Positions 9,384 through 12,244 of a stretch of DNA of 24,271 bases are shown one piece after another. Made by a program: the position numbers and the translations under genes. The first letter of the stretch is position 1. Each line of letters starts with the position of its first letter. The DNA comes from Candidatus Rokuibacteriota bacterium (GTDB lineage: Bacteria > Methylomirabilota > Methylomirabilia > Rokubacteriales > JACPHL01), in NCBI GenBank assembly GCA_016188625.1, contig JACPHL010000018.1:1-24271 (forward strand), written 5' to 3'. The notes below the pieces were generated by a model. That model did not search any database, was not told where the DNA came from, and saw nothing but the letters and a program-made list of their open reading frames with translations.

Positions 9384-10247
9384 TCACCCGCCCCACCACG
9401 CCAGGATCGCCTCGCGGACGATCCCGGCCGCGATGATCCCGGTGCGCCCCGACGGGTCGTGGGGTGGCGAGACCTCCACCAGGTCGAACCCGACGACCCG
9501 CAGGCTCCCGAGGAGGCGGATCGCCTCCACCAGCTCGCCCACGGCGAGCCCGCCGGGCTCGGGGGAGCCGGTCCCGGGGGCCACCGCCGGGTCGAGGACA
9601 TCGATGTCGAGGGTGACGTAGACCGGCCGGCCGGCCAGCTCGGCGGCCACCCACCGGACCGCCTCGAGGACGGGGCGCTCGGTGGCCGGGTAGAAGTGGG
9701 GGCCGCGGCGCGCGAACTCCTCCCGCGACCCGGTGCGCATCCCGATCTGGTAGACCCGCTCGGGCGGGATCACCTCCATCACCCGGGCCAGGGCCGAGGC
9801 GTAGTTCAGGGGCTCGCCGAGGAACTCCGCGCGGGTGTCGGGGTGGGCGTCGAGCTGGACGACCCGGAGGTCCGGGTGGCGCGGGGCGAGGACCTGGAGG
9901 ATGGGGACGGTCACGGTGTGGTCACCGCCGAGGAAGACCTGGCGCTGCTCGGGATCGAGCGCGGCCTCGAGCTGGCCCCGGATCGCCTCGAGGGCCTCCC
10001 GGACCGACCCCCCGGGGACGTGGACGTCGCCGGCGTCGGCCAGGGCCAGGTCCTCGAGATCCAGGCCCAGGGCCGGGGAGTAGGTCTCGATGGAGTCGGA
10101 GTCGCGCCGGATCCGGGCCGGGCCGAGGTAGGCGCCCTTGCGGAGGTTGACGCGCCCCTCGAAGGGGATGCCGTAGAGGGCGACGGCGGCCCGGGCGGGG
10201 TCCCGGGTGCAGGCGATGAAGGGGGGACGCGCCGGCAGGAGGCCCAT
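9384..10247 (-). CDS. speB: Agmatinase / N1-aminopropylagmatine ureohydrolase (arginase family)
   Basis: Arginase-family ureohydrolases use two manganese ions to remove urea from a guanidine. The 287-residue protein keeps the metal ligands: GGDH (H110), DAHPD (D133, H135, D137) and DIDVLDP (D214, D216), plus PGTGSPEPGGL. The His that in agmatinases follows about 12-14 residues after DAHxD (SHA/THG) is Tyr here (NYASA, Y149). The neighbours pdaD, speD and speE make agmatine hydrolysis to putrescine, or N1-aminopropylagmatine hydrolysis to spermidine as in Thermus thermophilus, the likely reactions; the sequence does not decide. The start ATG at 10247 is the only Met near the family's N-terminus, 20 nt after the pdaD stop; the upstream open frame is a shadow. 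Member of the run pdaD-speB-methyltransferase-rlmI. Confidence 0.88.
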   Translation of the reverse strand: MGLLPARPPFIACTRDPARAAVALYGIPFEGRVNLRKGAYLGPARIRRDSDSIETYSPALGLDLEDLALADAGDVHVPGGSVREALEAIRGQLEAALDPEQRQVFLGGDHTVTVPILQVLAPRHPDLRVVQLDAHPDTRAEFLGEPLNYASALARVMEVIPPERVYQIGMRTGSREEFARRGPHFYPATERPVLEAVRWVAAELAGRPVYVTLDIDVLDPAVAPGTGSPEPGGLAVGELVEAIRLLGSLRVVGFDLVEVSPPHDPSGRTGIIAAGIVREAILAWWGG

Positions 10248-10267: not shown

Positions 10268-10753
10268 CTACAGGAGGTCGTCCTCCGAGAGGAGGGCCAC
10301 GGCGGCCACCGCGCACCCGATCCGCTCCACCCGGTGCTCGACCCCGAAGACGCGGACCTCGCCGAGGGGCTCCCCGCGGGTCCGGAAGGCCGCCTCGATC
10401 ATCCGCCGGATCATCCGCTCCGCGACCTCGCGGGGGGCCTTGTCCGAGTACTCCATGATGACCCCGGGCCTGGCGGGGTCCTCGGGGAGGCCGTAGCCGA
10501 CCGCGGCCGAGATGATCTCCCCCTCCACCCGGCCGGTCTGGGAGGCGTAGGCGGTGGGGACGATCGCCCCCGGCCTGATCTTGGGCATCTCCGCGAGGAG
10601 GTCCACGTCGGGCGGGATGATGCTGGTGACCTTCACCAGGTTCACGTTGCCGATGCCGGCGGCGAGGAGGGCGTTGTCGAGCGCGTTCAGGGCGGTGAAG
10701 CCCTCCGCGTGGCCGACGGCGACCGCCACCTTCGTCACCTTCTTCCAGGGCAT
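10268..10753 (-). CDS. pdaD: Pyruvoyl-dependent arginine decarboxylase (PvlArgDC)
   Basis: The enzyme decarboxylates arginine to agmatine with a pyruvoyl group made by self-cleavage, not PLP. The 161-residue proenzyme shows VKVTSIIPP at residues 40-48. Cleavage should fall between Thr43 and Ser44, which would become the pyruvoyl group (Ser52/Ser53 in the Methanocaldococcus jannaschii enzyme). The conserved acidic residue sits in GVIMEYSD (E101), matching the general acid region of that enzyme. TAYASQTG and the C-terminal GCAVAAVALL also fit the family, and length is normal. A near-perfect AAGGAGGT (10760-10767) stands 6 nt before the ATG, so this first gene of the leftward operon should be translated strongly. 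Its promoter mirrors that of speD. It supplies agmatine to the ureohydrolase and/or the aminopropyltransferase. Confidence 0.92.
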   Translation of the reverse strand: MPWKKVTKVAVAVGHAEGFTALNALDNALLAAGIGNVNLVKVTSIIPPDVDLLAEMPKIRPGAIVPTAYASQTGRVEGEIISAAVGYGLPEDPARPGVIMEYSDKAPREVAERMIRRMIEAAFRTRGEPLGEVRVFGVEHRVERIGCAVAAVALLSEDDLL

Positions 10754-10809
10754 CCCCCCACCTCCTTGGCTCCGGTGCGGGAGCGGGATCTCGGACGCGA
10801 TTCGAGTGC

Positions 10810-10837
10810 ATCATACCGGCCGCGATCGAAAAAGCAA
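10810..10837 (-). promoter_or_regulatory. Promoter of the leftward pdaD operon
   Basis: On the minus strand, TTGCTT (10832-10837) is followed after 16 nt by TATGAT (10810-10815). Transcription should start near 10803, giving a leader of about 50 nt before the pdaD ATG. The -10 lies inside the left copy of a 15-bp repeated element. The region is AT-rich in an otherwise very GC-rich sequence, which supports a real promoter. Confidence 0.7.
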
Positions 10838-10850
10838 GATGATTTTTTGC

Positions 10851-10878
10851 TTGCAATCGCCCTTTCGTGGCCTATAAT
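10851..10878 (+). promoter_or_regulatory. Promoter of the rightward speD-speE-maf operon
   Basis: TTGCAA (10851-10856) is followed after 16 nt by a perfect TATAAT (10873-10878). Transcription should start near 10885, giving a leader of about 48 nt before the speD TTG codon. The -10 lies inside the right copy of the 15-bp element. Spacing and leader length mirror those of the pdaD promoter. Confidence 0.75.
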
Positions 10879-10932
10879 GCACTCGAAAAAATTCTGCAGC
10901 GACGTTGGAGGTGAGAAAGGGGGCTGATCACA

Positions 10933-11361
10933 TTGAATGCCTTGGGGCGTCACCTGCTGTTGGAGCTGTACGAGTGTAACGCCGAGGTCCTCAACAGCCT
11001 CGGCACCATCAAGTCGGCCCTCGTGGAGGCGGCGCGCCGCGCCGAGGCCACCATCATCGACGTCGTCTTCCACGAGTTCAACCCCTTCGGGATCTCGGGC
11101 GTGGTGGTCATCGCCGAGTCCCACCTCTCCATCCACACCTGGCCCGAGCACCGCTACGCGGCCGTGGACATCTTCAGCTGTGGGGAAGCCCTCAAGCCCG
11201 CCGAGGCCGCCGCCTACCTCGTGGAGCAGCTCGGGGCCGAGCGCGCCTCCTGCGTGGAGGTCAAGCGCGGCGTCTTTCCCCGGGTGTCGAGCCCCCTGAA
11301 GTCGAGCGGAGAGGGTCCCGCCTCCTATGGTCCATCCCAAGAACTACAAGTGGTTTTTTGA
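10933..11361 (+). CDS. speD: S-adenosylmethionine decarboxylase proenzyme, prokaryotic class 1B type
   Basis: SpeD makes decarboxylated SAM, the aminopropyl donor for spermidine, using a self-generated pyruvoyl group. The 142-residue protein starts MNALGRHLLLELYECNAEVL, the standard N-terminus, and has the self-cleavage site AESHLSIHTWPE. Ser63, His68 and Cys83 (DIFSCGEALKP) fall at the same numbers as the catalytic residues of the Thermotoga maritima enzyme. The start is TTG at 10933, with AAAGGGGG (10916-10923) 9 nt upstream. An out-of-frame ATG begins at 10937 (TTGAATG) but yields only a shadow. The C-terminus is extended by roughly 20 residues and overlaps speE by 35 nt, implying coupled translation. 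First gene of speD-speE-maf. Confidence 0.93.
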   Translation: MNALGRHLLLELYECNAEVLNSLGTIKSALVEAARRAEATIIDVVFHEFNPFGISGVVVIAESHLSIHTWPEHRYAAVDIFSCGEALKPAEAAAYLVEQLGAERASCVEVKRGVFPRVSSPLKSSGEGPASYGPSQELQVVF

Positions 11362-12244
11362 GGTCACGACCCCCGTCGAGGGGCACTTCCACGCCGTCGT
11401 CCGCACCATCTTCTCCCTCCAGTCGAAGTACCAGGAGATGGAGATCCTCGAGACGGCGAGCTACGGCAAGTGCCTGGTCCTGGACGGGCGGATCCAGTCC
11501 AGCGTGGAGGACGAGTTCATCTACCACGAGGCCCTCGTCCACCCCGCGCTCCTGACCCATCCCGGGCCCCGGTCGGCCCTCGTGGTGGGCGGCGGGGAGG
11601 GCGCCACGCTGCGGGAGGTCCTCCGCTACGGCTCTATCCGCCGCGCCGTCATGGTGGACATCGACGAGGCGGTCGTCGAGGCCTGCAAGCGCCTGCTCCC
11701 CGAGCTCCACCGGAGCGCCTTCTCCGACCCCCGGGCGGAGGTCCGCTACGAGGACGCCCGGGCCTACCTGGAGCGGACGCCGGAGCGGTTCGACTGCGCG
11801 GTCATCGACCTCACCGAGCCGTTGGAGGAGGGACCGGCCTGCCTCCTCTTCACCCGGGAGTTCTACCAGATCGTCGCGGACCGCCTCACCGAGGACGGGA
11901 CCCTCACCCTCCAGGCGGGGATGACCAAGGTGAACGAGCTCGGCTTCTTCACCGCCCTCTGCCGGACGCTGGCGGAGGTCTTCCCCGTGGTCGCCCCTTA
12001 CCAGACCTTCGTCCCCTGCTTCGGGACGCCGTGGGGCTTCGCCTGCGCCTCCAAGGGGAGCGATCCCCGGGCCCTGTCGCCCGAGACGGTGGACGCCCGG
12101 ATCGCCGAGCGGATCGGGGGGGAGCTGCTCTACTGGGACGGTCAGGCCCACCGGCACGCCTTCAGCCTCCCCAGGTTCCTCCGCCGGGCGCTCGAGGGCC
12201 AGGAGCGCGTCATCACCGACGCGCGCCCGATGATCGTGGCCTGA
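11327..12244 (+). CDS. speE: Polyamine aminopropyltransferase (spermidine synthase family)
   Basis: The enzyme transfers the aminopropyl group of decarboxylated SAM to putrescine (giving spermidine) or, in some thermophiles, to agmatine. The 305-residue protein carries the family pattern: SYGKCLVLDGRIQSSVEDEF (residues 45-64), YHEALVHPAL, VVGGGEGATLREVL (86-99), the SAM-ribose acid in VDIDEAVVEACK (110-121), YEDARAYL, and IDLTEPLEEGPACLLF. Two pocket positions differ from classical spermidine synthases: GGGEG in place of GGGDG, and DLTEP in place of DxSDP/DxTDP, so two Asp are Glu while Asp161 remains. This could alter substrate length preference. No strong ribosome site precedes the ATG; it lies inside the end of speD, which suggests coupling. 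maf follows 40 nt downstream. Confidence 0.9.
   Translation: MVHPKNYKWFFEVTTPVEGHFHAVVRTIFSLQSKYQEMEILETASYGKCLVLDGRIQSSVEDEFIYHEALVHPALLTHPGPRSALVVGGGEGATLREVLRYGSIRRAVMVDIDEAVVEACKRLLPELHRSAFSDPRAEVRYEDARAYLERTPERFDCAVIDLTEPLEEGPACLLFTREFYQIVADRLTEDGTLTLQAGMTKVNELGFFTALCRTLAEVFPVVAPYQTFVPCFGTPWGFACASKGSDPRALSPETVDARIAERIGGELLYWDGQAHRHAFSLPRFLRRALEGQERVITDARPMIVA

Follow-up and report, generated by a model that had tools for sequence, protein, structure and literature searches.

Two divergent polyamine operons of a Rokubacteria genome (a soil or groundwater bacterium), argDC-agmatinase and speD-speE, are preceded by two predicted promoters of like design, and the conserved signal of this pair is a block at the -35 element. 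The eye-catching part of the region, a 15-bp inverted repeat at the two -10/start sites, is its private, non-conserved part. The original prediction, which was made on the window (the whole analysed stretch of 24,271 nucleotides), was correct in its observation and misplaced in its emphasis. We think it probable that a sigma-70-type promoter pair has been kept phylum-wide and co-expresses both halves of spermidine synthesis, possibly with a regulator at the -35 block.

On the minus strand, argDC (10268..10753) encodes a pyruvoyl-dependent arginine decarboxylase (NCBIfam TIGR00286, 139 bits against a cut-off of 107), and the next gene in its operon encodes a speB-type agmatinase (9384..10247; NCBIfam TIGR01230, 227 bits against a cut-off of 174; Pfam PF00491) whose start, by reading, is probably ATG 10247. 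On the plus strand, speD (10933..11361) encodes S-adenosylmethionine decarboxylase (Pfam PF02675, E 3.4e-41) and speE (11327..12244) encodes a polyamine aminopropyltransferase (NCBIfam PRK00811, 278 bits against a cut-off of 260). The intergenic gap between the argDC ATG at 10753 and the speD TTG at 10933 is 179 bp. This TTG is the true start of speD, as fixed by homologues. Read by alignment, the start codon of speD is TTG, or GTG in some genomes, across the phylum, and the keeping of such a weak start codon so widely suggests translational control. Elsewhere in the window, positions 78-794 encode an OsmC-like protein with a weak, sub-cut-off match to an OsmC-related (seleno)protein model. 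The closest relatives of the window's genome belong to other families and have ArgDC proteins about 65-70% identical to that of the window; the best ArgDC matches among named records are also Rokubacteria, with 70% identity. In our genome set the window's genome is the sole member of its family (f1).

The consensus scan placed the speD promoter at TTGCAA (10851-10856, plus strand), a 16-nt spacer and TATAAT (10873..10878, plus strand), with a score of 10/12. The -35 hexamer lies within CTTGCAAT (10850..10857, plus strand), the conserved -35 block, which came from comparison across genomes and was scored as the -35. A run of T's directly 5' of the -35 (10843..10848, plus strand) resembles an UP element and is kept in 48 speD promoters and in 20 more from other orders. 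The argDC promoter, TTGCTT (10832..10837, minus strand, with CTTGC at 10838-10834), a 16-nt spacer and TATGAT (10810..10815, minus strand), was read by eye and is absent from the consensus-scan list; relatives carry CTTGC(A/G)T and TAnnnT in the same places. The hexamers of both promoters stand at the 16-18 nt spacing of sigma-70-type promoters, and leaders of about 47-50 nt would lead from the putative start sites to the argDC ATG and the speD TTG. The original prediction had described mirror-image promoters of one design, with a TTGC-type -35, a 16-nt spacer, TATRAT and leaders of about 50 nt, and all of this can be read in the sequence. After each -10 follows GCACTCGAA as the predicted discriminator/start region, at 10801..10809 (minus strand) for argDC and at 10879..10887 (plus strand) for speD, and together with the -10 elements these form the left and right arms of the 15-bp inverted repeat. 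The two CTTGC blocks are themselves inverted and 11 bp apart, as GCAAG-N11-CTTGC (10834-10838 / 10850-10854). No Rfam structured RNA leader scored above its gathering score in the window, and relatives gave only chance matches far below threshold.

Homologous loci show the same divergent design. The part that they share consists of the T-run, CTTGC(A/G)(A/T)T as the -35, a spacer of 16-17 nt and TAnnnT. Divergent argDC and speD with CTTGC -35 elements were found in nearly all members of the order Rokubacteriales that have both genes. Column information was 2 bits in the 48 speD promoters at CTTGCA, at the T behind it and at four positions of the T-run, and in the 46 argDC promoters at CTTGC. 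The arrangement persists in genera g2 and g7 (L163-L166, L174-L181), in which argDC was not found and the agmatinase gene is the first behind the divergent promoter. These two genera keep agmatinase and seemingly lack the pyruvoyl arginine decarboxylase.

In Rokubacteria genomes the block is also nearly confined to this promoter pair. The pattern TTTTTTCTTGCAAT-N15-19-TAnnnT had a single occurrence in each of 36 genomes out of 59 and none in the reversed control; when 30 such loci were fetched, 29 continued into the start of speD and the remaining one ended at a contig edge. A looser pattern, CTTGCRWT-N14-17-TAnnnTG, was present in 56/59 genomes, for the most part as the two divergent promoters of the polyamine locus. 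At the other CTTGCRWT matches read in the order, the T-run was absent and the contexts were mixed. Within Rokubacteriales the T-run with CTTGCRWT stands at both promoters and is rare elsewhere in the genome. The canonical promoters of the window's genome have the form TTGACA-N16-18-TAnnnT (129 against 0 in the control). Since the ordinary -35 there is TTGACA, the TTGCAA of speD is atypical in its own genome.

Beyond the order, the T-run, CTTGCA(A/T)T and TATAA precede every one of the 20 speD genes read from the class's other orders, whose SpeD proteins are 50-60% identical to the window's SpeD. The argDC block of other orders is weaker (CTTGCGG, without the T-run). At four NC10 argDC loci the divergent gene is not speD; CTTGC -35 elements stand on both sides in three of them and none was found in the fourth. 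The divergent neighbour of NC10 argDC (L117, L124, L131, L140) is a small frame resembling a membrane protein (MTLHGAVWVWGG...). Outside the phylum, the block was found at no speD in 24 genomes with argDC, by a pattern that also misses NC10 (e.g. G114). A looser pattern, applied to 299 genomes around G109 including Bacillota loci, matched 20 genomes, and none of the 20 loci fetched adjoins speD. Two Bacillota speD promoters have TTGACT, and the T-run with a CTTGCA -35 also occurs at Bacillota promoters of non-polyamine genes.

We propose that argDC and agmatinase would convert arginine to agmatine and then to putrescine, that speD and speE would supply decarboxylated SAM and aminopropyl transfer, and that the two halves would be made together. 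The promoters would share by descent the upstream block and not GCACTCGAA: a T-run acting as UP element and CTTGC(A/G)(A/T)T, followed after 16-17 nt by TAnnnT. Both are most likely promoters of the housekeeping sigma factor, kept as a pair so that putrescine and decarboxylated SAM are made in balance, and the block may be held constant by RNA polymerase together with a putative DNA-binding regulator that reads it. Because both -35 elements depart from TTGACA in like manner and are almost restricted to one pathway, an added regulator at the -35 is plausible. In the window, the spacing of GCAAG-N11-CTTGC would allow one bound complex to cover both -35 elements. In genomes of family f2 the two -35 elements lie from 37 to more than 700 bp apart, so that bridging by one complex is not general. 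The argDC -35 of the window, TTGCTT and not TTGCAT, and the weaker argDC block of other orders also count against this proposal.

A simpler explanation, with a little less than an even chance in our judgement, is that both promoters are merely ordinary and strong, with no regulator dedicated to them: the T-run would be an UP element, TTGCAA would be tolerated, and the conservation would reflect steady, balanced expression of essential enzymes. The spacing and hexamers do fit the housekeeping sigma factor, and as the T-run with CTTGCA stands at unrelated Bacillota genes, plain recognition by the polymerase may suffice. But the housekeeping -35 of the window's genome is TTGACA by the count given above, and the near-invariance of CTTGCAAT at one locus through the phylum is more than promoter strength needs. 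A bolder proposal goes the other way. Methylomirabilota (Rokubacteria and NC10) would have a two-promoter spermidine regulon, in which a putative dedicated factor binds the T-run and CTTGCAAT overlapping the -35, and to which the window's lineage would add a second operator, GCACTCGAA, at the two starts; taken as a whole we regard it as rather doubtful.

Sigma-70 promoters with UP elements likewise have hexamers 16-17 nt apart and an AT-rich run just 5' of the -35; here the -35 is CTTGC(A/G)(A/T)T instead of TTGACA, and it is kept at one pathway across the phylum. A shared regulator of divergent promoters is a general arrangement, and the present locus resembles it in having two divergent operons of the same pathway with oppositely oriented like elements. 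It differs in that the apparent shared 15-mer is not conserved, and in that distances of up to several hundred bp separate the f2 promoters. In E. coli, PuuR-type repression acts on the promoters of polyamine genes; a regulator at the present locus, should there be one, would be alike in this level of control, and we claim no similarity of sites.

The inverted repeat is real. TATGATGCACTCGAA (minus strand, 10815-10801) and TATAATGCACTCGAA (plus strand, 10873-10887) match at 14 of 15 positions in opposite orientation, as had been predicted, and a repeat search of the 179-bp intergenic region returned exactly one inverted repeat, 10801-10815 / 10873-10887, with 15 nt and 93% identity. The TATRAT part matches because both arms are -10 elements, and the surprise of the repeat therefore rests on the nine bases behind it. 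Given the base frequencies behind the -10 of 30 canonical promoters in the window's genome, 9/9 identity there has a probability of 8e-6. Among 600 Markov resamples of the intergenic sequence, one produced a 15-mer inverted repeat as good as 14/15, and TATRATGCACTCGAA with up to 3 mismatches was found twice in the window against 0.06 expected; the example had been chosen by eye in the original prediction, which bears on these estimates. A coincidence at this locus is unlikely, as had also been said there. The repeat may be a local operator, a set of matched discriminators tuning both promoters alike, or an accident.

In the model of the original prediction, one dedicated repressor, probably responsive to polyamines, covers both starts and has GCACTCGAA after each -10 as its operator. 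The match of 14/15 at a functional position, unlikely by chance, speaks for it. So does the distribution in the window's own genome, where GCACTCGAA is no genome-wide discriminator and has its sole intergenic copies at the promoter pair; the 10 further copies all lie within long open frames, and the whole 15-mer has only two relatives with 2 mismatches. A wider GCACTCGAA regulon in the genome was rejected on account of these 10 copies. A genome-wide start-region consensus behind GCACTCGAA was rejected as well, since 30 TTGACA promoters gave none; TATAATGC is mildly enriched in the genome (11 against 3 in the control), and its sites have no tRNA or rRNA context.

Conservation of GCACTCGAA beyond the -10 in homologous loci, whose lack the original prediction had named as refuting it, was absent. 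At the polyamine locus, none of the 94 further phylum genomes carries TATRATGCACTCGAA with up to 1 mismatch, and two stray 1-mismatch matches in these genomes lie on contigs other than that of the polyamine locus. Nor do the two promoters covary in their start regions. Over 42 loci, a pair agreed on average with its own partner at 3.67 of 9 positions against 3.58 for permuted partners (p 0.30; 0.47 with a shift of +-1 allowed); the window has the only strong pair, 9/9, and the next best own pair reaches 6. Concerted evolution of the two start regions was ruled out by the same comparison. Judged on these genomes, the 15-mer and its GCACTCGAA pair appear private to the window's lineage. The repressor-operator proposal is quite unlikely on this evidence; moreover, GCACTCGAA itself has no dyad, unlike many operators. 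The compared genomes all come from families other than the window's, which would leave room for a family-specific operator. Of the wider claim that one regulator switches both operons, the co-expressed unit found support in the conserved divergent promoters of like design and their nearly exclusive block, whereas GCACTCGAA as its shared element did not.

The repeat might instead be a mutational by-product, in which template switching between the opposed -10 regions copied one arm to the other and left no regulatory role. The identity is limited to the -10 plus nine bases (the promoter spacers, counted by eye, match at 5/16 positions, like unrelated sequence), and the repeat is not conserved in relatives, both of which agree with such an event. 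The exact placement of the arms at the functional sites of the two promoters speaks against it, as does the lack of an ancestral intermediate; we consider this origin possible, though somewhat doubtful. Discriminator effects on stringent promoters are established in E. coli, and identical bases from -6 to +3 might give both promoters equal open-complex stability and the same response to ppGpp or the initiating nucleotide without any binding protein. GC-rich bases do follow both -10 elements. Still, the match occurs only in the window's genome, the discriminators of relatives' promoter pairs differ, and nine identical bases would be left unexplained, which makes this explanation improbable too.

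The speD leaders of family f2 have a further feature. In 36 f2 genomes (L007-L029, L152-L189) the leader is about 120-160 nt long and holds a 6-8 bp hairpin, GCGACGC...GCGTCGC, then AGGAGAGGTGCGGTAGATG, then a short reading frame. Standard pairs occur in at least 35 of the 36 sequences at each of six hairpin positions, with compensatory changes (several pair types at one position; G-U/G-C or A-U/G-C at others), and the hairpin has no Rfam match. The upstream frame has 8-12 codons, the consensus MxGSxKGGPLD* and its own Shine-Dalgarno site (e.g. L166). In 33/36 genomes its frame is the one ending in a TGA that overlaps the TTG or GTG start of speD (two stop slightly earlier), in 3/36 it is joined in frame to speD, and no genome uses the third frame. 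From this layout, the frame is a candidate for a translationally coupled SpeD leader peptide. The window's own speD leader has neither the hairpin nor the upstream frame. A plant class of polyamine-responsive upstream frames is described for S-adenosylmethionine decarboxylase (PMC3426882). The f2 frame is like such eukaryotic frames in logic only. In the open-licence literature we found no paper on polyamine promoters of Rokubacteria or on a bacterial speD leader peptide.

Gene control in uncultured Rokubacteria is, to our knowledge, almost unknown. The speD block stays nearly unchanged while SpeD itself falls to 50-60% identity, and this offers a concrete starting point for testing how they keep the two spermidine precursors in balance. 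The hairpin and the coupled frame of 8-12 codons before speD in f2 would be a second candidate layer of control.
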